Positions 3,414-29,544 of a stretch of 64,000 bases of DNA are shown here, in pieces. The position numbers were made by a program, and so were the translations under genes. A model generated the notes under the pieces. It saw only the letters and a list, made by a program, of their open reading frames with translations, did not search any database and was not told where the DNA came from. Source of the DNA: Nocardia elegans NBRC 108235. GTDB taxonomy: Bacteria; Actinomycetota; Actinomycetes; Mycobacteriales; Mycobacteriaceae. How positions within the stretch are numbered: position 1 is the stretch's first letter; every line of letters begins with the position of its first letter. Location of the stretch: positions 124,001 to 188,000 of the forward strand of contig NZ_BDBF01000009.1 of assembly GCF_001612845.1 (NCBI RefSeq). The letters run 5' to 3'.

Positions 3414-3839
3414 TCAGGGCTCGACGAAAGCCCGTTCCAGGAGCGTGTACAGGCGGGCTCGGTCCTCGTCGCCGAGCCTGCTCAGGCCTTCTCGGGTCCG
3501 GTGCATTGTCGCGCGGATCGCGTCGACGGCACGCTCGCCCGCGGAGGTGATGACCAGATTCGTCACGCGACGGTCGGATGCGCTGGCCTCCCGTCGCACG
3601 AGGCCCCGCTTCTCCAGCCGGTCGATGATCCCGGTGACGTTGGACGCGTCGCACGCCAGTATCTCGGCCAGGGTGCGCATCGCGGCGGGACCCCGGCGCA
3701 GCACCGTCAAGGTCTTGCCCTGGCTCGCCGTGAGGTTCTCACTCGCCGCGGCGGCCGTGAAGTCGCTGTAGTAGACGCCCAGCGACACCGAGAGCAGCTC
3801 CATGAGCTGGGCCGTGTCGATGTGCTGAACCTCTGCCAT
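3414..3839 (-). CDS. MarR-family transcriptional regulator
   Basis: Winged-helix repressor of 141 residues. The recognition helix region reads LAEILACDASNVTGIIDRLEKRGLV and the wing contains RREASASDRRVTNLVIT, typical of MarR proteins. The ATG at 3839 has AGGA 8 nt upstream; the ATG at 3848 has none. It is divergent from the Old Yellow Enzyme gene, and the shared intergenic region carries matching inverted half-sites, so it most likely represses both genes and responds to an electrophile or aromatic ligand. Confidence 0.88.
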   Translation of the reverse strand: MAEVQHIDTAQLMELLSVSLGVYYSDFTAAAASENLTASQGKTLTVLRRGPAAMRTLAEILACDASNVTGIIDRLEKRGLVRREASASDRRVTNLVITSAGERAVDAIRATMHRTREGLSRLGDEDRARLYTLLERAFVEP

Positions 3840-3859
3840 GCAATTCATCCTACGTTCCG

Positions 3860-3935
3860 AAACTTGACCATCTCAACTATTGACCCCTACCGTGGAAATT
3901 GCTTGAGGTTATCAACCATCAAAGTTGTCAAGTTT
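3860..3935. promoter_or_regulatory. Divergent promoter region with inverted MarR-like half-sites
   Basis: AAACTTGAC (3860-3868) and its exact reverse complement GTCAAGTTT (3927-3935) bracket the divergent promoters. Between them lie further related elements, CAACTATTGACC and GGTTATCAACC. One half-site falls near each start codon, as expected for a repressor controlling both genes. Confidence 0.6.
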
Positions 3936-3951
3936 CTACGAGGAGCAACCC

Positions 3952-5079
3952 GTGCCCGTCACCGCGTCCGACGTCTCCCGCGCAGCGGAGATGCTGTCCC
4001 GGCCCGTATCCGTGAACAGCCTGACCATCCCCAACCGCATCGTGATGGCGCCGATGACGCGCATGTTCTCCCCGGGCGGCATTCCCGGCGACGACGTGCG
4101 GTCCTACTACGCGCGCCGGGCTGCCGCCGGTGTCGGTCTGATCGTTACCGAGGGGACCTACGTCGGTCACGCGTCGGCCGGTCAGAGCGATCGGGTACCG
4201 CGATTCCACGGTGCCGAGCAGTTGGCGGGCTGGGCGAAGGTCGCCGCGGACGTGCACGCGGTGGGCGGCACGATCGTGCCGCAACTGTGGCACATCGGCA
4301 TGGTCCGCAACCACGGCGAACAGCCCTACCCCGAGGCCCCGGCCATGGGCCCCTCCGGCATCCGCGTCGACGGTACCGAGGGGACCGGCGCGGCGATGAC
4401 GCAGCGTGACCTGGACGACGTCGTCGCCGCCTTCGCCGAGGCTGCCGCGGACGCCGAGCGCATCGGTTTCGACGGGGTCGAACTGCACGGCGCCCACGGC
4501 TACCTCATCGACCAGTTCCTGTGGGCGCGCACGAATCGCCGCACCGATGCCTACGGTGGAGATCCCTTGGCGCGCACCAGGTTCGCGACCGAGATCGTCG
4601 CCGCGGTTCGCGCGGCCGTGTCGCCCGGTTTCCCGGTGATCTTCCGCTTCTCGCAGTGGAAGCAGGAGGCCTACGACGCGCGGCTCGCCGAGACCCCGCA
4701 GGAACTCGACGCGATCCTGGCGCCGCTGGCCGCCGCCGGTGTCGATGCCTTCCACGCCTCCACCCGCCGGTACTGGCTCCCGGAGTTCGAGGGCTCGGAC
4801 CTGAACCTGGCCGGGTGGACCAAGAAGCTCACCGGCAAGCCCACCATCACCGTCGGCTCGGTCGGCCTCGACGGCGACTTCCTCCACGCCTTCACGGGCC
4901 GCGGCGCCGAACTCGGCAGCCTCGACAACCTTCTGGACCGCCTGGAACGCGACGAGTTCGACCTGGTCGCCGTCGGCCGGGCCCTCCTGCAGGACCCGGA
5001 ATGGGCGGCCAAGGTGCTGGGCGGCCGGATCGACGAACTGAAGGCCTACGATGCGGCGGCGCTGAAGACCCTGAGCTAG
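3952..5079 (+). CDS. Old Yellow Enzyme family NADH:flavin oxidoreductase
   Basis: TIM-barrel FMN ene-reductase of ~375 residues. Family signatures include NRIVMAPMTR near the N-terminus, the FMN/substrate motif VELHGAHGYLIDQFLWARTN, RTDAYGGDPLARTRF, and the phosphate-binding end VGRALLQDPEWAAKV. It reduces activated C=C bonds of enones or related electrophiles using NAD(P)H. The GTG at 3952 is preferred because GAGGAG lies 6 nt before it; an in-frame TTG at 3925 would overlap the operator. It is divergent from the MarR gene, which is the likely regulator. Confidence 0.9.
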   Translation: MPVTASDVSRAAEMLSRPVSVNSLTIPNRIVMAPMTRMFSPGGIPGDDVRSYYARRAAAGVGLIVTEGTYVGHASAGQSDRVPRFHGAEQLAGWAKVAADVHAVGGTIVPQLWHIGMVRNHGEQPYPEAPAMGPSGIRVDGTEGTGAAMTQRDLDDVVAAFAEAAADAERIGFDGVELHGAHGYLIDQFLWARTNRRTDAYGGDPLARTRFATEIVAAVRAAVSPGFPVIFRFSQWKQEAYDARLAETPQELDAILAPLAAAGVDAFHASTRRYWLPEFEGSDLNLAGWTKKLTGKPTITVGSVGLDGDFLHAFTGRGAELGSLDNLLDRLERDEFDLVAVGRALLQDPEWAAKVLGGRIDELKAYDAAALKTLS

Positions 5080-5149
5080 GAAGACACTGAACTCTCGGCC
5101 GCGGTGAGCGAAATCGTGGGAGCTGGTCGGATGCTGTGGGTGGCGAGCT

Positions 5150-5941
5150 TCAGCGCGCCAGATCCATGACCGCCGCGCGGCAGGCCTCCCACGCCGGGGA
5201 CGTGACGTCGATGAGTGCGTAGTGGTCGGTGCCGGGGAGCACCAGTAGCCGGGAGTCGTCCCCGGCCTGTCGGGCTGTGGCGACGAAGCGCTGCGACTGG
5301 CCGAGTGGCACGTCCTCATCAGCGGTGCCGTGCACGCACATCGAGGGGACGCCCATCGGAAGCAGTGCGCTGGGACAAGCCAGGGAGCGGGCCGCGGGGT
5401 CGTCTGCCCAGGCGCCCAGGAAGTTTCGGATGGCTCCGGAACCCAGGTCCTCCTTCAGCGCGAGCTCGAGGTCCAAAACTCCTGCCTGGCTGACGAACCC
5501 GGTCAGCGGTACAAGGGGCGAGCCTCCGGGAGAATCGGCGGGCAGCGATCCTCGACCGGCCAGCCAGCCGGCCAGCTGACCTCCCGCCGAATGCCCGATC
5601 GCGACGACTCGTGACAGGTCGAGACTGCCGACTTCCAGGGTCCGGCCGATCGCGGCGAGCCGGTCGACGGCGGCGGCAACGTCGACACAGGTGGTCGGCC
5701 AACCGCCGCCGCCGCGGTCCGGGTCGCCGCCCACTCTCCGATATTCGATGTTCCAGGCGGCGAAGCCGTGCCGGGCCAGATCCTCGGCCGGCTCGGAGGT
5801 CAGGTCGGCACCGTAGGCCGTTCGCCAGAATCCGCCATGGATGACCACGGCAACGGGCCAGCGGCCGGGGCAGTCGGGAAGGCTGAGCATGCCGTGCTGG
5901 CTCGGGTGGGTGCCGTAGCGCACCAACGCACGTGTCGGCAT
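5150..5941 (-). CDS. Alpha/beta hydrolase, kynurenine-formamidase-like
   Basis: 263-residue alpha/beta hydrolase. HGGFW (residues 35-39) is the oxyanion-hole motif typical of arylformamidases (BNA7/AFMID type) and related esterases. The nucleophile elbow is GHSAGG with Ser118. The acid is probably Asp208 in HGTADED and the base His240 in GTDHYAL. It lies 37 bp after the NRPS stop on the same strand, so it is probably co-transcribed. Because the NRPS ends in a tryptophan 2,3-dioxygenase domain, the simplest role is hydrolysis of N-formylkynurenine to kynurenine. It could instead act as an external thioesterase that releases the peptide, since the NRPS has no TE. The fold is certain; the substrate is inferred. 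Confidence 0.8.
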   Translation of the reverse strand: MPTRALVRYGTHPSQHGMLSLPDCPGRWPVAVVIHGGFWRTAYGADLTSEPAEDLARHGFAAWNIEYRRVGGDPDRGGGGWPTTCVDVAAAVDRLAAIGRTLEVGSLDLSRVVAIGHSAGGQLAGWLAGRGSLPADSPGGSPLVPLTGFVSQAGVLDLELALKEDLGSGAIRNFLGAWADDPAARSLACPSALLPMGVPSMCVHGTADEDVPLGQSQRFVATARQAGDDSRLLVLPGTDHYALIDVTSPAWEACRAAVMDLAR

Positions 5942-5978
5942 TCCACACCTCTCAACCTCTCAGTGCGACCAGCGAGTC

Positions 5979-8900
5979 CTATGACGGCCGCGAAGAATCA
6001 CTCAAGCGATCGATCAGGAAGCCGAGCCCGGCAGTACCCCCAGTGCCCCGGCTGTTGCCGATGAAGCGGCGGACGACATCCAGATGGTTCAGTCGCCAGC
6101 GCGTGAGGCCGGCGATGAACACATCGAGCTGCGCGCCCAGATAGCGGCGCTGCCGGCGGTGGGTGCTGTCGTCGTCGCGCCGGTCGGCCACGATCTCCAG
6201 CAGAGCTGCCACGGGAGCATGGCGAACGCCGGCCAGCAAGGTCGCCAACTGGTCCGACTGTGCCGCGCTCACTCCCTGCAATCGAGGCCGGAACTGTTGG
6301 AAGGCGTCCACCGCGAGATGCTGTAGGGCGCTCTCTGTCGTCAGCATCAGTTCGAGCACGGCATTGGCACGCTTCAACCGATCGACTGCGGTGTCGAACT
6401 CCGCCAGACGGGCGGACTGCAGCGCGAGCTCGAGGTCGAGCAGGATCTGCGAAACCCACAGTTCGGAGGTCTGGTGGACGATCAGGAAGTACCTCTCGTC
6501 GCTCCAAGCAAAACGGTCGTCGCCCGCGAACAACGGCTGAACAGCGCCGAGCAGCTCGTCGAGATGAAGGTAGTTCGCGTAACTGAGGCGCTCTTTCCTG
6601 GGCTTGTCCTCGGCCTTCTTCTCGGCCTTCTTCTCGGCATCGACGTGCTGACTCTGCTGCGCGGGAGCGGTATCGGACGGCGTCGACGTGGTCCCAGCTT
6701 GTCGCGCGTACGCGCAGATACCACCGAGGGCTTCGAACCACAGCCGGCTGAGCTCCGTCATCGCCGCGCGATCGAGCTTGGATGGCGCCCATGTCCACTG
6801 GGCGTGCAGGCGCGGGCCGCTGTCGCTGTCGACGGTGACCGCATTGACGGCCGCGGTGTGCGCCAGTGGCATCGCGCGACCGGCATCGCCGTTGTCGGTG
6901 AACAACGAACCCCAATAGCCGAGCCGCCAGACGTCACCCTCTGCCGAAGAGTCGAGCACCGGCACGCCCAGGCGCCCCAGATAGTTGAATCCGATCGGCG
7001 GGTCGGAGCCGCCCAGGTCGACATCGGCGTTCAGATAGCGCAGCAGACCGTAGGTCACTGGGTTCGGGACCGTACGAAGTTGCTCCTCGGCGTCACGGAT
7101 CACCGCCCCCAGCGCTGTCTCGCCGGCCGCTACCTGCGCCCACGACAGTCCACCCACCGCCAGCGACACCGGGTATTTGGTCGTGAACCATCCCACGGTG
7201 CGCGACAGGTCGACATCGGGGGCCAGCTCCTCCTCGCGCCCGTGGCCCTCGACGTCGATGCCGATCGGCGTGCTGCCGCTGCCGGAAAATTCCGTCCACG
7301 CCAAGGCGAACGCGATCAGCAGGACCTCGTGTACCCCGGCATCGAACGCGGCCGGCACCTCACCGAGGATCGTGCGGGTGGTTTCGGCATCCAGCGACAC
7401 CTCCATGTGCTCAGCGGTGGCGAACGTATCCTCGGGCTGCACCGGCGGGATCGCGGCGGGGATCTCCGCCACCTTCCTCCAAACGGCCGCCTGCCCGACG
7501 ATTTCCGGGCGGTGCGCGTACTCGGCCAGCAGCGATGCCCACCGGGCAAACGACGTCCCGGCTGTCGGCAACGTGACCTGCTGCCCCGCACGGTGTTGCG
7601 CCCAGGCGGTGTTGAGGTCGTCCAGCAGAATCCGCCACGAAACCACGTCGACGGCCAGATGGTTCACTACCAGCACCAACTGGCGCGTGGACGCAACCCA
7701 CAGCGCGCTGAGCATCACCCCGGCGGCCGGATTCAACCGAGATTGCGCTTTCGTCAGCTCCTCATCGGACAACTCGTCGACCGGTTGCAGACAAGCGCTC
7801 GCGTCCACTGCCCCCGCCTCGGGCACCTGCAGCGACCATCCACCGGCGCCGTCGTCGTCGACGCGGAGCCGCAGCATGGCATGCCGATCCAGCAAGGCCT
7901 GCACCATCATCACCACGTCGGTCTCGGTGACCTCCGCGGGCGCCTGCAACAACGCCATCAGATTGAACTGCTCGATCGGGCCGTGAACACTGTGCAGCCA
8001 GCGCATGATCGGGGTCGCGACCACGTGCCCGACACCGTCGTCGATCGGGCCGTCGGCACTGCCGGCCACCTCCGCCACCTCGGCCAGGCGGGCAACGGTC
8101 TGCTCGACGAAGATATCGCGCGGCCTGAACACGAGACCGGCGGTGTGGGCCCGCGCCACCACCTGCATCGACGAAATGCTGTCTCCGCCGAGGTCGAAGA
8201 ACGAGTCGTCGATGCCGACGTGGTCGAGTCCGAGTGTGTGGGCGTAGATGGTGGTGAGGATTTCTTCTGTGGGATTGGTGGGGGCACGGTATTTGCCGGT
8301 GGTGTATTCGGGTGCCGGTAGGGCGCGGGTGTCGAGTTTGCCGTTGACGGTCAGCGGTAGTGCGGGAAGTGTCATGATTGCGGCGGGGATCATGTAGGTG
8401 GGGAGTTGCCGGGCGAGTCGGTTGCGTATTTCGGTGGGGTTCGCGGTTCCGGTGATGTAGGCGACGAGGCGTTTGTCTCCGGGGTGGTCTTCGCGGGCGA
8501 TGACGGCTGCTTGTTCGATGCCGTCGAGTTGTGTGAGGGCGGTGCGGATTTCGCCGCATTCGATGCGGTATCCGCGGATTTTGACTTGTTCGTCGGCGCG
8601 GTCCACGTAGTGGAGTTGGCCGTCGTTTCCCCAGCGGACCAGGTCTCCGGTGCGGTACATGCGTGTGCCGGTTCCTCCGAACGGGCAGGGCACGAACCGC
8701 GTTGCGGTCAACGTGGGTCTGCGCCAGTACCCGCAGCTGACTCCGTCACCGGCGACATACAACTCGCCGGGCACACCCACCGGTACCGGCCGTAGCCGTT
8801 CATCCAGCACGAAGAGTGCTGCTGTGGGTACCGGTGAGCCGATCGGTGGTGTTCCGGATTCAGGTGTCAAGGGTGGGGTGAGGGTGACGCACATGGTGGT

Positions 8901-11900
8901 TTCGGTGGGTCCGTAGCCGTTGATGACTGTGTGTTCGGGTGCCCAGCTGTCTACTACCTGGGCGGGGCAGGTTTCACCGCCGAGTATCAGTGTCAGCGGT
9001 TCCAGGTCGTGTGGTGTGAGCATTGCTGCGGCGGTAGGTGTTTGGGTCAGCGTGGTGACGTGTTCGGCGGCAAGAAGGTCGTGGAAGTCGTTGGGGGAGA
9101 GGGTGATCGAGTCGGGGATGACGACGAGTCGTCCGCCGTGGAGTAGCGGGCTCCAGATTTCCCATACGGAGACGTCGAAGGCGAGTGAATGACACTGTGC
9201 CCATACCTGTTTCGACGCGGGTGTAGGGCCGGTGTCCAGGGTAGTCAGTAGTTGGGTGATGTTGTGGTGGGTGGTGGCCACGCCTTTGGGCACCCCGGTG
9301 GTGCCGGAGGTGTAGATGAGGTAGGCGATGGTGTCCGGGCGTGGCGCTGGTAGTGGGGTGCTGGGTTGGGTGTCGATTGCGGGGTCGTTGATATCGATGA
9401 TCGGTATGTCGATTCCGTCGAGTCGTTCGGATAGATCGGCGGTGGTGATGACGGCCGCGGGTGTGGCGTCGGTGAGCATGAATTCGATTCGTGCTCTTGG
9501 GTGTTCGGGATCGATGGGTAGGTAGGCGGCCCCAGTCTCGAGTACTGCGGTGATGGCGGTGATCGCTTGTGCTGTGCGTTGCATCAGTAGCCCGACCACG
9601 CATCCGGAACCCACACCGTGGTCGCTGAGCAGGTGTGCCAACCGGTTCGCCGCCTCGTCGAGTTGCCGGTAGGTCCAGGAGTCTTCGCCGCAGCTCAGTG
9701 CTATTGCGTTGGGGGTGCGGGTGACCTGTGCGGCGAACAATGCCGGAACCGACATCGCCGATGGTGTGCGCGTACGCAACACGGCGCGGTTGCTGAGTTC
9801 ATCCAGCCGGGTGTGTTCGGATTCGTCGAGCAGGTCCACTGATGACAGTGGTTGTCCCGGGTCGCGGGTCAGTTCGGTCAGTGTTCGTTCGAGCCGCTGG
9901 ATGAGTGTTTCGATGGTGGTGGTGTCGAAGATGTCGGTGCGGAATTCCGCTGCGCCGGTGAGTCCCGCCGGTTCGCCGTTGTCGGTGAAGCGTTCGCCGA
10001 GGGAGAACGCCAGGTCCATACGGGCGGTGTGGGTATCCACCGGGAGCGAGCTGATCTGAAGGTCGTCCAATACCAAACCGGCTGCGGGGTCGTTGTTTCC
10101 GGTGAAGTTCTGCCAGGCCAGCAGCACTTGGATGAGGGGGTGATGCCTCAGTGATCTGGCTGGGTTGAGTCGTTCGACCAGGACTTCGAAGGGTACGTGT
10201 TGGTGTTCGAAGGATTCGACGCTGCGGGTGCGGATTTGGGTGAGTAGGTCGGTGAGGGTGGGATCGCCGGTCAGGTCGACTCGGAGGACGAGGGTGTTGA
10301 CGAAGAAGCCGACCAATTCGTCGAGGGCGGGGTCGTCGCGGCCGGCGACCGCGAATCCGATTGCCACATCGGGGCTGGCGCTGAGTTTCGACAACAGCAC
10401 GGTCAGGGCGGTTTGGATGACCATGAAGTTGGTCGCGTTGTGTCGGCGTGCGATCCGGCTGATTTGTTGGTGTAGTTCGGGGGGCCATTCGATTTCTACG
10501 GTGGCGCCGTGGTGGTCGGTGGTTGGTGGGTAGGGTCGGTCGGTCGGTAGTTCGAGGTGTTCGGGCATTCCGGCGAGGGTGTGTTCCCAGTACTCGAGTT
10601 CGGTGGTGATGGGGCTGTGGGGGTCGTGTAGGTCGCCGAGCCGGGTGCGTTGCCAGAGTGTGTAGTCGATGTATTGCACCGCCAACGGCGACCGATCCGG
10701 CGCCCGGCCCGCGCACCGGCCGGCATACGCCACACTCAAATCGGCGGCCAGCGGCCTCAGCGACCAGCCGTCCGCAGCGATATGGTGCATCACGATCACC
10801 AGCACGTGTTCTCGATCGGCAACTCCGAAAAGCCGTGCCCGCAAAGGAATCTCGGCCGCCAAGTCGAACGGGTAGCATGCCGCCGCGTTGACCGCCGCGT
10901 CCAGCTGGGTGCCCGACCACCCGGTCGTATCGACAACCTCCCACCCGAAATCGACCCGCTCGACGGGGATAACCACCTGCCGGGGCGTTCCCTCGACCGT
11001 GCCGAACACCGTGCGTAGGCTTTCATGACGGCCCACCACATCGGCCAGCGCTGCACGCAGCGCCTCGACATCGAGCCCACCGCTCAACCGCAACGCCGCC
11101 GCCACGTTGTAGAGCGGGGAGGGGCCCTCCAGTTGGTCGATGAACCACAATCGTTGCTGGGCATACGACAACGGAATCACCGCGGGTCGTTCGACGGGTG
11201 TCAGTCGTGGGAGTCGGCTCGAACCCGCGCGACCGATACCGGAGGCCAGCCGGGCAACGGTGGGTGTGTCGAATACGGTGCGTACCGAGAGGTCGGTGTC
11301 GAGTGCGGTGTTGATCGCGGCGATCAGGCGCATCGCCGATAGTGAGTCTCCGCCGAGGTCGAAGAACGAGTCGTCGATGCCGACGTGGTCGAGTCCGAGT
11401 GTGTGGGCGTAGATGGCGGTGAGGATTTCCTCGACGGGGGTGCTTGGCGCGCGATACCCGCTCGCCGCGTATTCGGGTACCGGGAGGGCACGGGTGTCGA
11501 GTTTGCCGTTGACGGTCAGTGGTAGCGCGGGCAATGTCATGACTGCCGCGGGGATCATGTAGGCGGGAAGTCGTTCGGCGAGTTGGGTGCGTATGTCGGT
11601 GGGGTTTGCCGTGCCGGTGATGTAGGCGACGAGGCGCTTGTCCCCGGGGCTGTCTTCGCGGGCGATCACTGCCACCTGTTCCACCCCGTCCAATCCGGTC
11701 AGGGCATCCCGAACTTCGCCGCATTCGATGCGATATCCGCGGATTTTGACCTGTTCGTCGGCGCGGGCCACATATCGCAGCTGACCATCGTGTCCCCAGC
11801 GGACGAGGTCGCCGGTGCGGTACATGCGTGTCCCGGGCTGCCCGAACGGGCAGGCGGTGAATCGCGTCGCGGTCAGTGCGGTGCGCCGCCAGTATCCGCC

Positions 11901-14900
11901 GGCGACTCCCGCGCCGGCGACGTACAGTTCGCCGGTGACGCCGATCGGCACGCGCTGTAGTCGGTTATCGAGGACGAACAACGCTGCCCCGGCTACCGGT
12001 GCCCCGATCGGCGGAGCTCCCGATCCGGGTGTCAAGGGTGGGGTGAGGGTGACGCACATGGTGGTTTCGGTGGGGCCGTAGCCGTTGATCACCGTGTGTG
12101 CGGGCGCCCATTGGTCTATCACACGGGCGGGGCAAGTTTCACCGCCGAGTATCAGTGTCAGCGGTTCCAGGTCGTGTGGCGTGAGCATTGCTGCCGCAGT
12201 CGGTGTTTGGGTCAACACCGTGACGTGTTCGGAGGCAAGAAGGTCGTGGAAGTCGTTGGGGGAGAGGGTGATCGAGTCGGGTATGACGACGAGTCGTCCG
12301 CCGTGGAGTAACGGGGCCCAGATTTCCCACACAGAAATGTCGAAGGCGAGCGAATGACATTGCGCCCATACCTGTTCGGAGGCGGGTGTAGGGCCGGTGT
12401 CCAGGGTCGTCAGTAGTTGGGTGATGTTGTGGTGGGTGGTGGCCACGCCTTTGGGCACCCCGGTGGTGCCGGAGGTGTAGATGAGGTAGGCGATGGTGTC
12501 CGGGCGCGGCGCTGGTAGTGAGGTGCTGGGTTGGATGTCGATTACGGGGTCGTTGATATCGATGATCGGTATGTCGATTCCGTCGAGTCGTCCGGCCAGG
12601 TCGGCGGTGGTGATCACGGCCGCGGGTGTGGCGTCGGTGAGCATGAATTCGATTCGTGCTCTTGGGTGTTCGGGATCGATGGGTAGGTATGCCGCTCCGG
12701 TTTCGAGTACTGCGGTGATGGCGGTGATCGCTTGTGCCGAGCGTTGCATCAGTAGCCCGACCACGCATCCGGGACCCACCCCGTGGTCGGTGAGCAGGTG
12801 GGCCAGCCGGTTCGCCGCCTCGTCGAGCTGCCGGTAACTGTATGAACGATCGCCGCAGCTCAATGCTGTTGCGTTGGGGGTGCGGGCGACTTGTTCGGCG
12901 AACAGTTCCGGTACCGATTTCATCGACGGTGGGCGGGTTCGCAATACGGCGCGGTTGCCGATCTCGTCCAACCGGGTGTGTTCGGTCTCGTCGAGCAGGT
13001 CTATCGATGACAGTGGTTGTTCCGGGTTGGTGGTGACGGCGTTCAGTGTTCGTTGCAGCCGGTCGACGAATGTTTCGATGGTGGTGGTGTCGAAGATGTC
13101 GGTGCGGAATTCCACTGCTCCGCCGAGTCCGGCGGGTTCGCCGGTATCGGTGAAGCGTTCGCCGAGGGAGAACGCTATGTCCATGCGGGCGGTGTGGGTA
13201 TCCACCGGAAGCGAGGTGACCTGGAGGTCTTCCAGCGCCAAACCGGCTGCGGGGTCGTTGTTTCCGGTGAAGTTCTGCCAGGCCAGCAGAACCTGGATCA
13301 GCGGGTGATGTGTCAATGATCTGGCCGGATTGAGTCGTTCCACCAGTACCTCGAACGGGATGTGCCGGTGTTCGAACGCATCCAGGCTGCGGGCGCGGAC
13401 CTGGGCCAACAGGTCGGTGAAGGTGGGATCGCCGGTCAGGTCGACTCGCAGTATCAAGGTGTTGACGAAGAAGCCGACCAACTCGTCGAGGGCGGGATCA
13501 TCACGACCGGCGACGGCAAAGCCGACCGCTACGTCGGGGTCGGCGCTGATCTTAGACAACAGCACCGTCAGGGCGGTTTGGATGACCATGAAGCCGGTCG
13601 CGTTGTGTTCGCGCGCGGTCCGGTTGATCTGCTGCTGCAGTCCCGCCGGCCATTCGACTCTCAGGCTGGCGCCGTGGTGGTCGGTGGTTGGTGGGTAGGG
13701 TCGGTCGGTGGGGAGTTCGAGGTGTTCGGGCATTCCGGCGAGGGTGTGTTCCCAGTACTCGAGTTCGGTGGTGATGGGGCTGTGGGGGTCGTGTAGGTCA
13801 CCAAGCCAGGTGCGTTGCCAGAGTGTGTAGTCGATGTATTGCACCGGCAGCGGTGCCCGATCCGGTGCGTGGCCGTGTCGGCGGGCTCGGTATGCCTGGC
13901 TGACGTCGCGGGCCATGGGAATCGGTGACCATCCGTCGAAAGCGATGTGGTGCAACACGATTGCGACGATGTGCTGTTCGGGTCCTATCGAGTAGATGTG
14001 GGCGCGGATCGGGATTTCGGTCGAGAGGTCGAATCGGTATCCGGCCAGTTCGGCCAAGGCGTCGTCGATGTCTTGTTCGGGCAGTGGTATTGCTGCTGGG
14101 CCGTCGCGTCGCCACATTCCCGGTCGGGTCGGCAGTACCTGTTGGAATGGCACGCCGTCGGTGTCGGGGAATATGGTGCGCAGTGATTCGTGGCGGGCCA
14201 GGACGTCGTCGAGGGCTGCGTCCAGTGCTTCGATATCCAGCTCCCCGCTGATTCGGAAAGCGATGGGCATGTTGTAGACCGGGGACCGGCCTTGTAGTTG
14301 GTCGATGAACCACAATCGTTGCTGGGCATACGACAACGGAACGCGCTCGGGGCGTTCGACGGGTACCAGTCGTGGGGCTCGGCTCGAACCCGCACCATCG
14401 ATACCGAGGGCCAGCCGGGCAACGGTGGGTGTGTCGAACACGGTGCGTACCGAGAGGTCGGTGTCGAGCGTGGTGTTGATCGCGGCGATCAAGCGCATGG
14501 CCGACAGTGAATCTCCGCCGAGATCGAAGAACGAGTCGTCGACCCCGATGTGGTCGAGTCCGAGTATCCGAGCGTAGAGCGTGGTGAGGATTTCCTCGAC
14601 GGGGGTGCTCGGGGCGCGATACCCGCCGGCGGTGTACTCCGGTGCCGGTAGGGCGCGGATGTCGAGCTTGCCGTTGACCGTCAGCGGTAGCGCCGCCACC
14701 GCCATCACCGCCGCCGGAATCATGTAGGTGGGAAGGTGTTCGGCGAGTTGGGTGCGTATCGTGGCGGGGTTTGCGGTTCCGGTGATGTAGGCGACGAGGC
14801 GTTTGTCTCCGGGGTGGTCTTCGCGGGCGATGACGGCTGCTTGTTCGATGCCGTCGAGTTGTGTGAGGGCGGTGCGGATTTCGCCGCATTCGATGCGGTA

Positions 14901-17900
14901 TCCGCGGATTTTGACCTGTTCGTCGGCGCGGTCCACGTAGTGGAGTTGGCCGTCGTTTCCCCAGCGGACGAGATCTCCCGTGCGATACATCCGGGCCCCG
15001 GGCGCGGCGTATGGGCAAGCCACGAACCGTGTCGCGGTCAGTGCGCCGCGACGCCAATAGCCGCAGCTGACTCCGTCACCGGCCACATACAACTCACCTG
15101 TCACACCAACCGGCACCGGCCGTAGCCAGCGGTCGAGGACGAACAACGCTGCACCCGGTACGGGTGAACCGATCGGTGGTGTCCCTGAACCCGGCGCCAA
15201 TGGCGCAGTCAAGGAAACACACATGGTGGTTTCGGTGGGTCCGTAGCCGTTGATGACCGTGTGTGTGGGCGCCCAGCGGTCTATCACTTGGGCCGGGCAG
15301 CGTTCGCCGCCGAGTATCAATGTCAGCGGTTCCAGGCCTTCTGGTGTGAGCATTGCTGCGGCAGTGGGGGTTTGGGTCAACACGGTGACGTGTTCGGCGG
15401 CAAGAAGGTCGTGGAAGTCGCCGGGGGAGAGGGTGATCGAGTCGGGGATGACGACGAGTCGTCCGCCGTGGAGTAGCGGGCTCCAGATTTCCCATACGGA
15501 GACGTCGAAGGCCAGCGAATGACACTGTGCCCATACCTGTTTCGACGCGGGTGTGGGGCCGGTGTTCAGAGTTGTCAGTAGTTGGGTGATGTTGTGGTGG
15601 GTGGTGGCCACGCCTTTGGGGATCCCGGTGGTGCCGGAGGTGTAGATGAGGTAGGCGATGGTGTCCGGGCGTGGCGCCGGGAGTGCGGTGCTGGGTTGAC
15701 TTTCCAGGGTCGGGTCGTTGATATCGATGATCGGTATGTCGATTCCGTCGAGTCGTCCGGCCAGGTCAGAGGTGGTGATGACCGCCACGGACGTGGCGTC
15801 GGTGAGCATGAATTCGATTCGTGCTCTTGGGTGTTCTGGATCGATGGGTAGGTAGGCCGCCCCAGTCTCGAGCACTGCCGCTATCGCGGTGATGGCTTGT
15901 GCTGTGCGTTGCATCAGCAGTCCGACCACGCATCCGGAACCCACCCCGTGGTCGCTGAGCAGATGTGACAACCGGTTCGCGGCTTGCTCGAGCTGCAGGT
16001 AGGTCCATGAACGAGCACCGCAGCTCAAGGCTGTTGCGTTGGGGGTGCGGGCCACTTGTTCGGCGAACAACGCCGGAACCGACATCGCCGAGCGCGTGTG
16101 CGTGTGCAGTACGGCGCGGTTGCCGATCTCGTCCAGCCGGGTGTGTTCGGTCTGGTCGAGCAGGTCCACCGACGACAATGACCGCCCCGGGTCGCTGGTG
16201 ATGGCGATCAGTGTTCGTTCCAGCCGTTGGATGAGTGTTTCGATGGTGGTGGCGTCGAAGATGTCGGTGCGGAATTCCACTGTGCCGGTGAGTCCGGCGG
16301 AGTCGCCGGTGTCGGTGAAGCGTTCCCCGAGGGAGAACGCTAGGTCCATGCGGGCGCTGTGGGTGTCCAACGGAAGCGAGGTGACGTCGAGGTTTTCGAG
16401 CTGCAACCCGGCGGTGGATTCGTTGTTCTCGGCGAAGTTCTGCCAGGCCAGCAGCACTTGGACGAGGGGATGATGCACCAGTGACCTGGCGGGGTTGAGC
16501 CGCTCGACCAGTACTTCGAACGGTACGTGTTGGTATTCGAACGCTTCGAGGCTGCGTGTGCGGACCTGAGTGAGTAACTCGGTGAAGGTGGGATCGCCGG
16601 TCAGGTCGACTCGGAGGACGAGGGTGTTGACGAAGAAGCCGACCAATTCGTCGAGGGCGGGGTCGTCGCGGCCGGCGACCGCAAATCCGATTGCCACATC
16701 GGGGCTGGCGCTGATTGTGGACAGGAGGACCGCGATGGCGGCCTGGATGACCATGAAGCCGGTCGCGTTGTGTTCGCGCGCGGTCCGGTTGATCTGCTGC
16801 TGCAATTCCGCGGGCCATTCGACTTTCAGGCTGGCGCCGTGGTGGTCGGTGGTTGGTGGGTAGGGTCGGTCGGTGGGGAGTTCGAGGTGTTCGGGCATTC
16901 CGGCGAGGGTGTGTTCCCAGTACTCGAGTTCGGTGGTGATGGGGCTGTGGGGGTCGTGTAGGTCGCCGAGTTGGGTGCGTTGCCAGAGTGTGTAGTCGAT
17001 GTATTGCACCGGCAGCGGTGCCCGATCCGGTGCGTGGCCGTGTCGGCGGGCTCGGTATGCCTGGCTGACGTCGCGGGCCATGGGAATCGGTGACCATCCG
17101 TCGAAAGCGATGTGGTGCAACACGATTGCGACGATGTGCTGTTCGGGTCCTATCGAGTAGATGTGGGCGCGGATCGGGATTTCGGTCGAGAGGTCGAATC
17201 GGTATCCGGCCAGTTCGGCCAAGGCGTCGTCGATGTTTTTTTCGGGCAGCGGTATTGCTGCTGGGCCGTCGCGTCGCCACATTCCTGGTCGGGCCGGCAG
17301 CACTTGCTGGAATGGCACGCCGTCGGTGTCGGGGAATATGGTGCGCAGTGATTCGTGGCGGGCGAGTACGTCGTCGAGGGCTGCGTCCAGTGCTTGGACG
17401 TCGAGTTCCCCGGTGATCCGGAAAGCGATCGGCATGTTGTAGACCGGGGAGGGGCCTTGTAGTTGGTCGATGAACCACAACCGTTGCTGGGCATACGACA
17501 ACGGAACGCGCTCAGGGCGCGGCATGGCCTGCAGCGGCGAGCGAGCGGGCTCGCCACGATGCGAGTGCAGATAGTCGGCGAGACCCTCGACCGTGGACGC
17601 GTCGAACAGATACCGGACCGGCACTTCTCGGCCCAGCGCGAACTGCAGCCGCGCGCTCACCCGGGTAGCAGTCAACGAGTTTCCACCCAGGGCGAAGAAA
17701 TCGTCATCGAGCCCCGCTCGGTCTCGACCCAATACCTCCGCGAACACCTCGGCGACGATCTTCTCGACCCGAGTCCGCGGCGCCCGGAAGGGCGTGGCAG
17801 CAAACATCGGTGCCGGCAAGGCCTTACGGTCGATTTTGCCCGAGGAGGTCAGCGGGAACTCGTCGAGCACCACAATCTGCGCCGGCACCATGTACTCGGG

Positions 17901-20900
17901 CAACCACGCGCTCAACCGCCGACGGACGGCGCTGATTTCGGTGTTGGTGTGCGGGTCATTGGCGTGGGTGGTGATCCGATGGTCTCCGGTGTTGGGCAGG
18001 TAGAGCTCGCTCAGCGGTGGGGTGGGCCGGCGGTCGGGGTCGGTGGGAGTGATGAAAGCGGCATCGAGGGTGCCGGGCTGGGCGCCCCAGGTAACGGCAA
18101 CGTGGTAGCCGGTGGTTTCGCCCAAGCGGTGCAGCTGTTCGGGTGTAGTGGTGTCGGAGGTCGCGGCGGCCCGGGCGAGTGCGTCGGCCAGGGGTAACCC
18201 GTCTGCGAGGGCGTGTTCGATGCGGACATCGGTGATCAGTCCGGTACGGGGGATGCCGGTAATGCGCACGGTGGCGGGATGTCGGGAGATCAGCTCGGCG
18301 TGCAGACCGCGCAGCCCGGCGAATCGGGTCCATGCCCAAGAGGGTGCCGTTGCCAGTGAGCGGACCGGAGTGGGCGTTTTATAGACGGTGACGTCGTACC
18401 GGTACCTGTTGAGTTCGTTATCGGCCGATCCGCGTTTGACCTGTATGTCGAGTCCGGCCACCGACGGACGACCGGCGGCCCAGCCGGTGAAGAACTCGGG
18501 GGCCAGCAGCAATTCGGGTTCGCTGAGCACGGCGAGCCGGACTTGCCGGCGGATCTCGGCGGCGTCGGTGGTGGCGGTGCGGGCCAGCGCGACCGCCGTG
18601 TGAAACGCTGCCTGCAGGGTGTGATTACGGACGTCGCCGATGAACATCGCCCCACCGGGGGCCAGCAGATCCATAGCGGCATCGCTCACCCTGGTCAGAT
18701 AATCCTTATTGGGGAAGTACTGGACGACCGAGTTGAGAATGATCGTGTCGAAGTAGCCCCGCGGCAATGCCTCGGTGACGTGAGCCGGCTGGGTCAGCAG
18801 CTGGACTCGGTCACGCCACGGGATCTGCAACTGGTCGAGCGAGTGCGCGAGATTGTCGATCGCCACCGCTGACACGTCGGTGGCAACATAGCGCTCACAC
18901 CGCGGGGCGATCTGTGACAACACCAGCCCGGAGCCCGCACCGATCTCCAACACCCGCCGCGGCTGCAGCGCGAGGATCCGATCCACCGTGGCCGCACGCC
19001 ACTCCATCATCTCCTCGAGCGGAATCGGATCATCGGTGTAGCTGCTGTTCCAGCCCCGGAAATCCATGCCGAACTCCGACGACGCCACCTCGGCGTCGTA
19101 CAGCTCGTTGTTCATGTGCCGCCACTGTCCGACGATGTCGGCATCGTGATCGGTGGCGGTGTGATCGAGGGTGATGTAGGCGATGAGGTGGGCACCGGTG
19201 CTGCTCCGGTGCATGGTTGCGGCGGCCTGGGTGACCTGTGGGCAGGCCAGCAGCGTGTTCTCGATTTCACCCAGTTCGATGCGTTGCCCGCGCAGCTTGA
19301 TCTGGGTGTCGGCGCGGCCCACGTACACCAGGGTGCCGGTGGAGGTCCAGCGCACCAGGTCACCGGTGCGGTACACACGCGCCCCGGCGACTCCGTAGGG
19401 GTTGGCCACGAATCGTTCCGCGGTCAAGTCCGGCCGGTCCACATAGCCGCGCGCCAGCGCGGGCCCGCCCAGATACAGCTCGCCCACCACCCCGACCGGG
19501 GTCGGGTTCAGCCGCGCGTCGAGCACGAGCGCGCATATCCCAGGAATCGGGGTGCCGATGCTGACCGGCTGCCTCGACGACAGTGGCGCAAGGGTGGCAC
19601 CGATGGTGGTCTCGGTGGGGCCGTAGCCGTTGAACATTTGCCGTCCCGGAGCCCAGGCGGCCACCAACTCCTCCGGGCAGGCCTCCCCGGTAGTGACCAG
19701 TGTGCCGACTCGGTCCAGCCGGGCCCGATCCAGCGACGACAGCACCGTCGGCGTCAACACCGCCGCGCTGACCTGCTGGTCCTGCAGGAACGCGGTCAAC
19801 GCCTCCCCGGCATACACCGCCGGCGGTGCCACCACCAGCGCCGCGGCCGACCCGACTGCCCACAAGATATCGAAGATCGACGCATCGAAGGTCGGCGCGG
19901 CCACCATCGAAATCCGCGCATCCGCGCCCAGCCCGAACACCGCCCGCTGCGCCGCGGCCAGCCCCAACAGACCGGCATGGCTGACCGCCACTCCCTTGGG
20001 GGCACCGGTGGATCCCGAGGTGAACATGGCATACGCGGTGTTGTCCACCCTCAGCCCCGCCAGCCGATCGGCGTCGGTGATCGCCTCCGCGGACCGCCCG
20101 GACACATCCGGAGCGTCGATGCGCACTATCGCACGCGCCGCGGCCCCGGCTACCGTGTCGGACCCGCAGGTCAACACGCACACGGCCCCCACCGCGTCCA
20201 GCACCGTGGAGATTCGCTCGACCGGATGGGCGTGGTCCAGCGGCACATACACCCCGCCGGCCTTGACCACCGCCCACCATGCCACCACCAACTCCACACG
20301 GCGATCCATCGCCACACCCACCGCGCGCTCCGGGCCCACGCCCTCCTCGATCAGCACCCGCGCCACCCTCGTCGACCACCGATCGAGCTCGCGATACGAC
20401 ACCTCCCGGGCACCGTCGACGACTGCCGGCGCGTCCGGGCCGGCCGCCACCGCCGCCGCCAGCAACTGCGGCGCCAACCCGACCGGCGCCGCCACTCGGG
20501 CACCGGACCACACCGACAGCACCAGATCGCGCTCACCGGTGGCCAGCAACGACACCTCTCCCACCGTCACCGACGAGTCCGCCACCACAAGGCGGTCGAA
20601 AAGCATCTCCAAACGGGTTATGTGCCTGGCGATGTCGTCGGCGGCGTACCGATCCGGATTCCACATGAACTGAATTCGCGGCGTGCCATCACCCAATTGC
20701 GGATAGATGTTGATTGCGCAGTCTTGTATGGGATAGGTGGTCAATACGTTGTACGTCACTTCGGAAGGCCCGAAATGCAACGGGGTGGCGAAGTCGAGGA
20801 TGTTGATCGCCGGACCGAATTCTATGTTCATGTCGGGTCGGGTTGCCTCGGCGATCAGGTCCGGCCAGCGCCGGAATTGTTGGTGCCGCAGCGCGCCGAC

Positions 20901-21941
20901 TATGGACTCGGCTACCTGATCGGTCAGTACGCCGATGGTGTCGCCGTCATGGACTCGAATGAGCAGCGGCACCATGTTCGAGACCATGCCCGTACATCCT
21001 TTCAGGGCCGCAGTCGTGCGTGCCGACACCGGCAGAGACAACGAAACATCTTGCTGTCCTGTGGTTTTCGCGATGAACACCGCTACCGTCGCGACAACCC
21101 TTGCGACATCGAGTCGGACAGGCCGGTTCTCCTCGAATCGATGCGTGTACACCAGTTCACGAACCAACGGGTGGCGTGGTGCCACCGGCCTGCGCGTCCC
21201 GCCCAGGTCGGTGATGTCCAGAGGTTCACGCACGACGGTTTTCCAGTACTCGGCATCGGCACGACTGCGCGAAGACTGCTGATACTTCTGATCCGCGTTG
21301 CGGATCAGGTCGAATTCGGAGAAGTCGACTTCGCCGGTGTCGGGCACTGCTCCCGAATAGACGGCCGCGATGTGCCGGACCATGGTGTGGGCGCCGTACC
21401 CGTCCAAGAGAACGTGGTGTGTGCGCAGGTAGAAATACGACAGATCGTCGGTGATGCGCAGCAGCGCAAACTCGGTGAGTCGGTCACGGACCAGATCGAT
21501 CGGCCGGCGGTAGTCGTTGTCCATCCAGCCGCGCGCAGCGGATACCGGGTCACGCTCGGCGCGCAGATCGATACAGCGAATGGTCCGCGGAAACGAGCGA
21601 TCGACTATGAAAACCGGTTCGCCGTCGTCGAGGGATAGCCGCGCGCACGGTGTGCCGAACCGCGTTGCCGCCGATTCGCACGCAACCATGAGCCTCTCGG
21701 CATCGACATCGTGATCGATCGCCAGAAAAACGGCAACGTTGTAAGGGACTTCGGGCCGGAGTTGCTGGGCAGCCCATATCGACCTCTGAGCGGCGGTTAA
21801 GGACCCCAGCACCTCCGGATGGACACCGTAGTTGAGCATGATGACGAATTCCGTGTAAGTCTTCGAAGCGTCGAATCCCGGCAACCAGACGACCGATTCG
21901 GTGATCTCATGCCGGCTGTAGCGGTGATCGTGATGGCACAC
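5979..21941 (-). CDS. Four-module NRPS fused to a tryptophan 2,3-dioxygenase
   Basis: 5320 residues in one open frame. Approximate domains: starter C 35-480 (HHVLLDG ~175), A1 490-1375 split by an N-methyltransferase (VLEIGAGSG ~994), T1 (GGNSL ~1420), C2 (HHIAFDGWS ~1610), A2, T2 (GGDSL ~2478), C3 (~2665), A3, T3 (~3532), C4 (HHIAADGWS ~3720), A4, T4 (~4587), epimerase 4630-5075 ([21 protein letters not shown]), Lys/Glu/Ala-rich linker, TDO 5119-5320. TDO residues match human Y42, F72, H76, R144, H328 and T342 as Y5121, F5152, H5156, R5218, H5286 (haem ligand) and T5300. There is no thioesterase. It predicts a tetrapeptide, N-methylated at residue 1 and with a D-residue at position 4. The GTG at 21941 or the ATG at 21839 could be the start. 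No MbtH gene is in the window. Confidence 0.93.
6000..6600 (-). other. TDO domain region inside the NRPS gene
   Basis: Codes for residues 5119-5320. The run [12 protein letters not shown], then [35 protein letters not shown] and GTGGTAG follows the order seen in tryptophan 2,3-dioxygenases. At ~200 residues it is shorter than typical bacterial enzymes (~260-300); the missing part falls between the Arg and the haem His. I see no in-frame ATG, GTG or TTG in the linker just upstream, so it is not a hidden separate gene. Confidence 0.85.
8160..17600 (-). repeat. Tandem near-identical NRPS modules 2-4
   Basis: Modules 2, 3 and 4 repeat with a period of ~3165 bp (equivalent C-domain sites at 17094 and 13929). 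Long stretches are identical at DNA level, for example around 13840-14080 and 17005-17245. The A2, A3 and A4 cores differ by only a few residues. C4 shares the second half of C2/C3 but has a divergent first half, with the switch near 10680. This points to recent duplication and recombination or gene conversion, and is also a hotspot for misassembly. Confidence 0.85.
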
Positions 21942-21996: not shown

Positions 21997-22767
21997 TCAT
22001 CGGGCAGAACTGGCCACCGCGATCTGGGGGCTTCCGGGGAGAACGGCTGCCTGCCTGCGCAAGTCGAGGGTGATCGCCGGGTCGGCGTATCGGGCCAACG
22101 CGCGCAGCGCCGACGGGCCGTAGGCGCGCAACGAGCTGATCAACGCGTCGTGCCAGTACGGAAAGATCACCAACGGCAGCGCCGGCGCCAGCATGACGAG
22201 GTGCAGTAACGAAGGCGGACGCGACAAGTCGATGATCAGCAGTTTCGCGGCGGCGCGGGTGCCTTCCGCGAACACCCGGGCAGCCAGCGGTGGTGGCAGA
22301 TGGTGCAGGGACTGCACGAACACGGCGAGGTCGTAGAACCCGTCGGGCGCGTCGATGGCAGTGGCGTCCATCTCGCGCACGGTGGCCCGCGGATGACTGC
22401 CCAAATCACCGGCGGCGATCGCAGCGACAGAGGCGGGTTCGATGTCGGTGACCGTGACGTCGGCGGTGGGATGCATCTCCAGCAGCGCGCGCGATAGTCC
22501 TCCGTGGCCGGAGCCGAGTTCCAGGATCTTGGGCTCGCGCACGTCGGTGACCTCGTCGAGCACGATGCGCGCGAGCTTCCGATGTATCCCGAAAAACCTT
22601 TCTCCGCGGTCCAGAGAACGAATGATTTTGCGCTTCCGATCATCGACGTCGTCACGGTCGAGGTACTCCAGACGATCGGTTTCCAACCGCCTGTCCAGCC
22701 ACGACGCATCCGGTCCGCCGCGCGGCATGCGGTTGATGTCGAAGGTCTCCGTGGTCATAGCGTTCAC
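21997..22767 (-). CDS. Class I SAM-dependent methyltransferase
   Basis: 256 residues from a GTG that overlaps the stop of the upstream oxygenase gene (GTGA); an ATG at 22758 is an alternative. Motif I reads [20 protein letters not shown], followed by the acidic beta-2 end VTVTDIEP and a motif near [14 protein letters not shown]. The C-terminal part has a hydrophobic stretch ([16 protein letters not shown]). Translational coupling with the oxygenase and the 55-bp gap to the NRPS mark it as a tailoring enzyme of the peptide. The acceptor (N, O or C) cannot be read from sequence. Confidence 0.85.
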
Positions 22768-24146
22768 CCCGCGCTACGGGAACCGTTATCGGTGGATGTG
22801 GCCATTCCGGCTCGGCGGTTGGCTGCGACCAGCCGCATCAGGAACGAGGGCCGCGCGAGCCGGGCCGGTGGGTCGACGAAGTGCATCACTCGAAGGACCG
22901 CTTCGGCGACCGCCGGATCGTTCGCGGCGGCAGCCTGTGCCTTGTCTATGGGCCAGTTCACCAAGTGCCTCGGCACGCGACGCCAACCACCTCCCTGGGA
23001 CACGGTGAAATCGGTGAACCGATTTCCCCGCCACACCGGGGCGATCTGTTTGGCGGTCGCTTTGAAGAATCGCCGGCTCACCGCTCCGTCGCGATCGGCC
23101 AGGCAGTCGTGCAGCGCGACGGCCTGCAGCGCGGCCATGGTCATGCCCTGCATATATACGGGGTTGAAACTGCAGATCGCATCGCCCATCACCAGCAGCC
23201 CCGCGGGGAATCGACGCATCTTGTCATAGCGTCTCCATGTGCTGGCCGGGTAATGCTGCGCGGACACCCCGCCGAGCGGCTCAGCGGACCGCAGCGCGTC
23301 GATCAGAGTGGGTGGCGCGAATTGCGCGGCGCATTCGATAACGCCGGACAGGTCACGGGGAAGTTTGTACCCGCCTACGCCGAACAGGGTCAGGATCCAG
23401 GTGTCGTCCTCGTAGGCCACGGCCACCACCCCGGCCGGTCGTTCGGGCAGCGGACTGACCGAGAAACCCAATTTCTCGCCGATCGTGCCCGCGGGGACCC
23501 GCAGAAATTGGCTGGCATAGTTCAGATGCACCGGGTAGCTCTGCTCGATCGGTCGCTCGCAGCCGAGGTTGTCGAGGAACGCCGGCGTATGCCCCGAGCG
23601 GCCCATCGCATCGACCACCAAGTCGGCATCCAGCACGGATTCCTCACCCGTGTAGCGGTTGACTATCCGGGCGCCCGTAACCCGACGGTCGCGGTCGGTC
23701 GTGGGCTCGACGACAGCATGGCTGTCCAGAATTCTCACGTTCTCGATGGCGCGGACTCGCCGCCTGACATGGGAGTCCAAGAATGGTCGGCTGGGTTGAT
23801 AGACGACCAGCGATGCCGGGTCGGCAAACTTGTCCGCGACATCGAGCTCATGCCGGCCCAACCGGACATATACCCGCGATGGCTCATTGGCCAGGACTTT
23901 CGCGCCTGCGGCGACGAGTTCGTCGAGCACGCCGGGAAACAGCTGATCCAGGACGCTCGATCCCCTACTCAGCAGAGCATGAAAATGCCGTGCCTGGGGC
24001 ACACCTCGCCGCTGCTCAGGACCGTCCGGCAGCGGGTCCCGCTCGATGAGCGTGACCACCTCGTAAAAGTCCGACAGCACCCGGGCGGCGAGCAGCCCGG
24101 TCATACTCGCCCCGCAGACGATGGCTCGGTGTCCGAGTTTGCTCAT
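22764..24146 (-). CDS. FAD-dependent monooxygenase-type oxidoreductase
   Basis: 460-residue flavoprotein. The N-terminal dinucleotide fold is IVCGASMTGLLAARVLSDFY, with the ribose-binding Glu in VTLIERD. The second FAD motif is GDAICSFNPVYMQGMT near residue 300, which matches the GD(A)xxxxxPxxxxG motif of group A hydroxylases and geranylgeranyl-reductase-like enzymes. GGGAG (rc of 24150-24154 region) precedes the ATG. It is the first gene of the NRPS operon and overlaps the methyltransferase by 4 bp. It probably oxidises a precursor or the finished peptide, for instance by hydroxylating an aromatic ring, but the substrate is unknown. Confidence 0.85.
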   Translation of the reverse strand: MSKLGHRAIVCGASMTGLLAARVLSDFYEVVTLIERDPLPDGPEQRRGVPQARHFHALLSRGSSVLDQLFPGVLDELVAAGAKVLANEPSRVYVRLGRHELDVADKFADPASLVVYQPSRPFLDSHVRRRVRAIENVRILDSHAVVEPTTDRDRRVTGARIVNRYTGEESVLDADLVVDAMGRSGHTPAFLDNLGCERPIEQSYPVHLNYASQFLRVPAGTIGEKLGFSVSPLPERPAGVVAVAYEDDTWILTLFGVGGYKLPRDLSGVIECAAQFAPPTLIDALRSAEPLGGVSAQHYPASTWRRYDKMRRFPAGLLVMGDAICSFNPVYMQGMTMAALQAVALHDCLADRDGAVSRRFFKATAKQIAPVWRGNRFTDFTVSQGGGWRRVPRHLVNWPIDKAQAAAANDPAVAEAVLRVMHFVDPPARLARPSFLMRLVAANRRAGMATSTDNGSRSAG

Positions 24147-25155: not shown

Positions 25156-25188
25156 AGCGGGGCAGGGCCTTTCGAAATACTGAGGGGG

Positions 25189-29449: not shown

Positions 29450-29467
29450 GAGAACCTCCATAGTGAG

Positions 29468-29520: not shown

Positions 29521-29544
29521 CAATCCCTTGGATAGAGTGGTGGC

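Follow-up and report, generated by a model that had tools for sequence, protein, structure and literature searches.

A tryptophan 2,3-dioxygenase domain at the C terminus of a nonribosomal peptide synthetase in Nocardia

The genome of Nocardia elegans NBRC 108235 encodes a nonribosomal peptide synthetase (NRPS) whose C terminus is a tryptophan 2,3-dioxygenase (TDO) domain. The gene lies on contig NZ_BDBF01000009.1 within a stretch of 64,000 nucleotides (positions 124,001 to 188,000 of the forward strand), which we refer to as the window. TDOs that serve NRPS pathways are already known, and it is the covalent NRPS-TDO fusion that appears to be new here. We give roughly even odds (a probability of about 0.5) to the reading that this fused, short-form TDO acts in cis, converting L-Trp to N-formylkynurenine that is deformylated by an adjacent hydrolase and used by the same assembly line.

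An NRPS that ends in a TDO domain

The minus-strand open reading frame (ORF) is open without interruption from 21941 to its stop at 5979, a length of 5,320 amino acids, and comprises four modules of condensation (C), adenylation (A), and carrier (T) domains followed by an epimerization (E) domain and the TDO domain (Table 1). Residues 5076-5320 match Trp_dioxygenase (PF03301; E = 4.4e-25) with 89.2 bits, above the curated cut-off of 34.9; together with the in-frame fusion and the four modules ending in E-TDO, this bears out a first-pass annotation, made from the sequence alone, that had placed a TDO at the end of the NRPS. The interval 6600-6720, where a frameshift or assembly error had been considered, holds neither a stop nor a frameshift, and because the NRPS end reads into the domain without a change of frame at all six Nocardia loci described below, the fusion is not an artefact. 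The E domain matched TIGR01720 at 2.3e-11, under the curated cut-off (the query cut through the domain), and contains the EGHGRE and TVGWFT motifs; in its HHxxxD motif the second His is retained and the first is Asn (NHLAVD). A low-complexity linker follows it and leads into the TDO domain. No thioesterase (TE) was found in the 5,320-residue protein by Pfam, motif scans, or NCBIfam. An Rfam search gave no match, and a promoter scan of 4900-7000 gave nothing above chance.

Within the genus, six of the 150 genomes scanned carry the fusion, this one included. A scan of named genomes returned six Nocardia loci (N. nova, N. kruczakiae, N. aobensis, N. cerradoensis, N. africana, and Nocardia sp. BSTN01), five of which are, by contig and position, from the same genomes as in the 150-genome scan, as well as one canonical TDO of Promicromonospora. 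Among 99 genomes (relatives and this one), some match was seen in 48 and a close copy (82-83% identity) in three besides the genome itself; at 1e-25, a scan of 301 genomes of the phylum matched only this genome and one other (G218). Computed by the Nei-Gojobori method against five of the six Nocardia loci, dN/dS ranged over 0.158-0.268 in the TDO domain and 0.222-0.312 in the E domain; the linker, with no more than 29-38 codons to compare, gave 0.339-1.144. The TDO domain is thus under purifying selection like the rest of the NRPS, and the linker is much less constrained. In a plasmid collection, 63 records had a TDO match, and the best 15 of these comprised 11 annotated as TDO, 4 unannotated, and no NRPS; nothing there came close to a full copy of the NRPS gene, the best coverage among the matches listed being 8%.

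An order-wide profile search of 348 genomes gave matches in 22, one of which revealed a second arrangement. In a genome of the same family and another genus (G1077), a T domain, a TE (PF00975, 6.7e-31), and a TDO (3.4e-26) are joined in one frame. The TDO domain is orthologous to the Nocardia domain (72% identity over 200 amino acids), and the adjoining hydrolase is 75.6% identical to that of the window. The T domain is identical to the first T domain of the window at 62 of 78 positions and to the second to fourth at 30-33 of 76-77. This T-TE-TDO (L100:1468-3351), which the hydrolase adjoins, is cut off by the end of its contig: the contig stops at the T domain, and the modules upstream of it were not found; among the other contigs of this genome, C37 is nonoverlapping with a different ending, and C18, C28, and C77 break inside other modules. 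Since TE precedes TDO here, the dioxygenase does not take over from a thioesterase, nor does it keep a constant position with respect to the last carrier. The first-pass annotation had described it as standing in place of a thioesterase, which does not hold as a rule, and TE-less NRPSs that end in E are known (excerpts of PMC7459860).

The same annotation knew of no described NRPS-TDO fusion. For the open-access PMC literature, this holds as far as the matches listed go, none of which describes one, and there is no mention of such a fusion in the available portions of PMC9113097, PMC3578932, PMC4787774, PMC10967133, PMC7413640, PMC12153302, PMC7459860, and PMC12471526.

The TDO domain and its short-form relatives

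Against the Protein Data Bank (PDB), phmmer placed the domain with human TDO (6a4i, E = 8.9e-18) and the Xanthomonas campestris enzyme (2nw7, E = 8.8e-17); all matches except an unrelated chain (0.87) were chains named TDO, MarE included at about 0.1. When the short clade described below was searched as a profile, E was 7.8e-27 for human TDO and 7.2e-6 for MarE. The six residues named in the first-pass annotation (Y5121, F5152, H5156, R5218, H5286, and T5300) are present and, as aligned by phmmer, fall on the corresponding motifs of human TDO, where Y45, F140, and S151 of the human enzyme also have counterparts. The alignment thus supplies H5286, H5156, R5218, T5300, and Y5121/Y5124, which we take to be the haem-ligand His, the distal His, the substrate Arg and Thr, and the N-terminal Tyr pair, respectively. 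These catalytic residues, including the carboxylate-binding Arg and the Thr of GTGG, are conserved across seven aligned Nocardia copies. A by-eye match to the QFR of SGFQSxQFR had suggested that the substrate Arg was lost; this was wrong, as phmmer puts the FR of DFNDFR on R5218.

The domain is about 205 amino acids long. The segment from QS to the haem-ligand His spans 57 residues, versus 99-112 in canonical TDOs, 42-55 in other short (mini-) TDOs, and mostly 68 in the stand-alone type of NRPS clusters, as measured on rows in which the script located the right His. Two trees place the Nocardia domains in a single clade with short Streptomycetaceae TDOs (ultrafast bootstrap [UFBoot], 100), and in the second tree the mini-TDO clade of 14 is separate from the stand-alone TDOs near A domains (UFBoot, 100). 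Both trees were midpoint rooted and lack locus L021; the second drops 25 of the first tree's 49 rows, among them all of the most divergent TDO-like ones, gains 17, and is without Qui17 and TioF, the latter being a thiocoraline-type TDO.

At 1e-20, 19 of 297 Streptomycetaceae genomes had a match, and 19 of the 20 places concerned (all but that in G598) were examined. Mini-TDOs are fused at five Streptomycetaceae loci to an FAD enzyme related to the one encoded in the Nocardia cluster, and in four genomes of the order they lie beside such a gene without fusion. Counted over the 12 mini-TDOs other than those of Nocardia whose surroundings were examined (a count without the matches in G1045 and G943 and the second match in G969), 9 are fused to or beside an FAD homolog, and L078-L080 have no FAD match. 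The five fused mini-TDOs are in the tree; L111-L114 were found by profile and are outside it. All nine loci (L047, L048, L084, L085, L086, and L111-L114) have matches to two polyprenyl synthases, a P450, and an aromatic-ring hydroxylase. At L080, a stand-alone short TDO lies near P450-like and, by eye, FAD amine-oxidase-like genes. The cluster FAD gene is 36% identical over 430 amino acids to that of L047; searched with the TDO-fused FAD domain, it is the second of two matches in its own genome, and its N. africana counterpart is the third of three. By a Rosetta-stone argument, the fusions elsewhere provide moderate evidence that the cluster FAD gene may be linked to the TDO.

Outside the mini-TDO clade, stand-alone TDOs at 11 loci were compared. 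An A domain lies in the fetched stretch at 9 of them and none at L089 and L094; among the 9, a P450 match was seen at 7 and a DAWVxT-type pocket at 6. This setting resembles that of the quinomycin and thiocoraline pathways. Four actinobacterial loci (L049, L050, L053, and L060) have two distinct TDO-like genes close by, one of them without the usual HQxxELW motif. At L087, a stand-alone TDO is near a gene that by eye resembles a tryptophan halogenase and near an A domain with the pocket DAWVTTAVG, and this may be a chlorokynurenine peptide cluster.

Hydrolase partner, adenylation pockets, and gene cluster

The hydrolase gene adjoins the NRPS-TDO gene at all six Nocardia loci. Counted from the NRPS stop, the gap before the match to the hydrolase is -13 to +31 bases at the five loci for which it was calculated; the window has 37. 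Its product contains both alpha/beta-hydrolase motifs of kynurenine formamidases, HGGxW and GxSxG. A set of 394 genomes from the class was scanned for TDO and for the hydrolase, and the matches were compared with a limit of 6 kb; 64 genomes besides this one have matches to both, and in 9 of these the two matches start at most 5 kb apart (at most 0.8 kb in two), as a raw count. From this neighborhood (9 of 64 genomes) and its motifs, the protein is probably a kynurenine formamidase. A gausemycin-type cluster encodes a TDO (ORF10) and an alpha/beta-hydrolase (ORF11), the latter read by the authors as kynureninase (excerpts of PMC12471526). The N. elegans genome has no PF03301 match besides the NRPS domain, no kynureninase over the cut-off, which two control genomes pass, and no KynB over the cut-off, which no control genome passes either; the TDO/hydrolase pair therefore looks dedicated.

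The pocket codes of the A domains come from a motif-based reading of alignments in GrsA numbering, and the Lys at the tenth position is assumed. The pocket of the first A domain (A1) reads DAFVVTGIG, and that of its N. africana counterpart reads DAFVITGIG. The closest likeness is to DAWV(L/M)TGVG or DAWVTTAVG, found in six A domains near stand-alone TDOs and in that of NZ_CP108982.1, whose annotated cluster we take to be of the quinomycin/thiocoraline-like type; A domains at three other TDO loci (L081, L083, and L090) have other codes. The published kynurenine (Kyn) code is DAWTTTGVGK or DAWTTTGVAK (excerpts of PMC9113097), with which DAFVVTGIG(K) agrees at 6 of 10 residues and DAWVLTGVG(K) at 7 of 10, Lys being assumed in both. 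G1077 has A1-like domains that are 70-73% identical to A1 and have the pockets DAGFMGVIW and DVGVIITIW; because they differ in this way, the likeness of A1 to the TDO-linked A domains lies in the pocket and not in the backbone. The A-domain tree was built after removal of four divergent A-like rows and omits the A1-like domains of G1077, although by BLAST these are nearer to A1; for this reason the clade obtained is no evidence of descent. Read from its pocket, A1 is probably a Trp- or Kyn-type adenylation domain. The pockets of A2 to A4 are nearly one code, D(V/I)WTIGGMC, and look aromatic; with these near-identical pockets, modules 2 to 4 (8046-17510) are predicted to incorporate one residue three times.

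N. africana has the genes for the FAD enzyme, methyltransferase, NRPS-TDO, and hydrolase as one group, without the other window neighbors tested. The first-pass annotation, right about the fusion itself, had passed over the hydrolase partner, the conservation of these four genes as a cluster, the clade of short forms, and the likeness of the A1 pocket to the Trp/Kyn type.

Table 1. Features of the NRPS-TDO gene cluster in the window
Feature	Coordinates	Strand	Evidence
NRPS gene, C-A(MT)-T / C-A-T / C-A-T / C-A-T-E-TDO (MT, methyltransferase), without thioesterase	5979..21941	-	Pfam, motif scans, NCBIfam
Module 1, C-A(MT)-T; A1 pocket DAFVVTGIG(K), methyltransferase inserted after A8	17547..21824	-	
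Module 2, C-A-T; A2 pocket DVWTIGGMC(K)	14376..17510	-	
Module 3, C-A-T; A3 pocket DIWTIGGMC(K)	11211..14339	-	
Module 4, C-A-T; A4 pocket DVWTIGGMC(K)	8046..11174	-	
Epimerization domain (E)	6717..7964	-	TIGR01720 and motifs
Ala/Lys/Glu-rich variable linker between E and TDO, residues 5076-5113	6603..6716	-	Length differs among species
Short-form TDO domain, residues 5114-5320	5982..6602	-	PF03301, PDB TDOs, dN/dS
Alpha/beta-hydrolase with HGGFW and GHSAGG motifs, BD-FAE, probable kynurenine formamidase	5150..5941	-	Pfam, motifs, adjacency
SAM methyltransferase gene	21997..22767	-	Pfam Methyltransf_25; kept in N. africana
FAD monooxygenase/epoxidase related to MonCI and LasC	22764..24146	-	PDB MonCI, E = 1.4e-50; kept in N. 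africana

On one side of the cluster (24742-29904) the window contains genes for an ACR3 pump, an ArsC-like phosphatase, an ArsA-like ATPase, and an ArsI/CadI family enzyme, with a small ArsR-like ORF seen by eye in the same arsenic-resistance stretch. On the other side (3414-5079) are divergent genes for a MarR-like regulator and an Old Yellow Enzyme-type oxidoreductase, neither of which had a match at the seven related stretches searched.

Possible roles of the fused domain

In the scheme that we favor, the TDO domain would be a catalytically intact short form that opens the indole ring of L-Trp to give N-formylkynurenine. Its substrate would most likely be free Trp, gripped by the conserved Arg/Thr pair; the adjacent alpha/beta-hydrolase would strip the formyl group, and the resulting kynurenine would be consumed by the same NRPS, most likely by module 1 with its Trp/Kyn-type pocket and methyltransferase or else by its peer modules. 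The first-pass annotation had set on-site supply of N-formylkynurenine beside action on a tethered Trp. Of the two, supply for the assembly line is the simplest reading and fits both the formamidase-like partner and R5218, whose conservation is consistent with free Trp, as had been argued. In the daptomycin and taromycin pathways, the TDO DptJ is a separate protein that supplies kynurenine, and the NRPS pathways using kynurenine that we know of all have a separate TDO. The Nocardia system would resemble these in a TDO that supplies kynurenine to an NRPS, and A1 shares 6 of 10 residues with the Kyn code, whereas the daptomycin NRPS ends in TE (the Kyn module of DptD; excerpts of PMC9113097), the Nocardia TDO is covalent, and A1 belongs to a methylating first module.

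The absence of a TE also bears on release. Surugamide and desotamide NRPSs (SurE type) end in an E domain without a cis-TE (excerpts of PMC7459860), as does the NRPS described here. The difference is that its C terminus is extended by the TDO and that no penicillin-binding-protein (PBP)-like cyclase is among the four conserved genes, nor was one found among the genes scanned beside the NRPS (hydrolase, methyltransferase, FAD enzyme, Old Yellow Enzyme, MarR, Amphi-Trp, and arsenic genes). With neither a TE nor a SurE-like gene among the four, it could be that the hydrolase doubles in release of the finished peptide.

Several observations weigh against the supply of kynurenine by the fused domain. 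About half of the canonical TDO middle segment is missing, and the domain scores 94.7 bits against the TDO equivalog TIGR03036, whose cut-off is 390.7. The AlphaFold model, built from eight sequences, is poor (pLDDT, 63.8; pTM, 0.63); the 50 Foldseek matches listed are all TDO or MarE, but with TM scores of only 0.32-0.38, and the structure therefore contributes little. The 50 VIA-align matches listed are unrelated helical proteins with no TDO among them, which shows neither a differing fold nor a new one. A TDO tetramer on a chain of 5,320 residues would be sterically demanding. In the PDB, the hydrolase comes closest to an unspecified carboxylesterase, 9x6a, and none of its five matches is named arylformamidase, so that the formamidase role is drawn from neighborhood and motif; moreover, the nine co-located hydrolase/TDO cases come from just two genera (seven and two). 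Finally, with its hydrophobic V278 and V299 (pocket positions in GrsA numbering), A1 looks closer to a Trp-loading pocket than to the Thr/Thr pocket for Kyn, and if A1 loads Trp, free kynurenine would not be its substrate.

This last point leads to the strongest of the alternatives, which we nevertheless regard as unlikely: that A1 loads Trp, the TDO acts on tethered or peptidyl Trp, and the hydrolase deformylates the product later. The Trp-like A1 pocket strengthens it, as does the resemblance of that pocket to those of A proteins beside stand-alone TDOs in clusters that look to be of the 3-hydroxyquinaldic acid (HQA) or quinomycin kind. The TDO is covalently placed next to T-E, and its shortened middle segment could open the active site. 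In quinomycin/thiocoraline-type biosynthesis, a TDO is likewise dedicated to an NRPS pathway and stands beside an adenylation-peptidyl carrier protein (A-PCP), Qui18, that loads L-Trp (excerpts of PMC3578932). The TDO in question, Qui17, is however a stand-alone protein of 275 amino acids that acts after release and converted free beta-hydroxytryptophan in vitro (same excerpts), whereas the Nocardia TDO is covalent. Quinomycin-type TDOs also group outside the mini-TDO clade that holds the Nocardia domain, and no P450 or aminotransferase gene is among the four genes of the Nocardia cluster. Retention of the carboxylate-binding Arg and the GTGG Thr in seven Nocardia copies weighs against a tethered substrate, since a thioester or amide has no carboxylate. 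Because the TDO follows E in one arrangement and TE in the other, across a linker that is not conserved, a diffusing substrate is favored over a tethered one, although this is not proof. About as unlikely is the bolder version in which this would be the first in-cis NRPS oxygenase to cleave the indole of Trp on a carrier or nascent peptide, giving N-formylkynurenine on the spot, with the NRPS oligomerized by its TDO tails.

It is more doubtful that the TDO fold performs other haem/indole chemistry, such as monooxygenation in the manner of MarE, with the FAD epoxidase taking part in the same indole tailoring. MarE, a haem enzyme acting on beta-methyltryptophan, is a TDO-like protein of specialized indole metabolism and is among the Foldseek and profile-search matches, but it is stand-alone, and the sequence is far nearer to true TDO than to MarE by the E values given above. 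The mini-TDO/FAD-epoxidase genes of other actinobacteria, in clusters with two polyprenyl synthase homologs, speak for such chemistry, as an FAD gene of the same MonCI-like family lies in the Nocardia cluster. They share with the Nocardia domain the short form and, for the five fused ones, the clade; we know of no characterized member. They are, however, fused to or beside the FAD enzyme and not an NRPS. The formamidase-like partner in Nocardia implies a formyl product, which weighs against this reading.

A noncatalytic TDO fold that serves for docking or oligomerization of the NRPS seems very improbable. The domain occupies the spot where, presumably, a C-terminal communication region would follow E, and Qui17 is reported to be a tetramer (excerpts of PMC3578932), but such a role would not account for catalytic residues conserved in seven Nocardia copies or a hydrolase partner kept at six of six Nocardia loci and in another genus. 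Least probable of all is a catabolic TDO fused by accident and without a role in the peptide: TDO and the hydrolase family are also neighbors in other actinobacteria, but the fusion is kept in five Nocardia species and Nocardia sp. BSTN01, is under selection in the five copies tested, has no kynureninase over the cut-off in its genome, and accompanies a Trp/Kyn-type A1 pocket.

The covalent NRPS-TDO arrangement, found in a group of Nocardia and as TE-TDO in another genus, would add an in-cis haem dioxygenase to the set of NRPS domains, and it reveals an uncharacterized clade of short TDOs, other members of which lie in seemingly terpenoid clusters. T-E-TDO or T-TE-TDO together with an HGGxW hydrolase provides a signature with which genomes may be searched for kynurenine-containing peptides. 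Two questions also become testable: whether tethered Trp can be a substrate of a TDO, and whether a TDO, normally a tetramer, forces an NRPS to oligomerize. In Nocardia, kynurenine chemistry appears to have been wired straight into a peptide assembly line.

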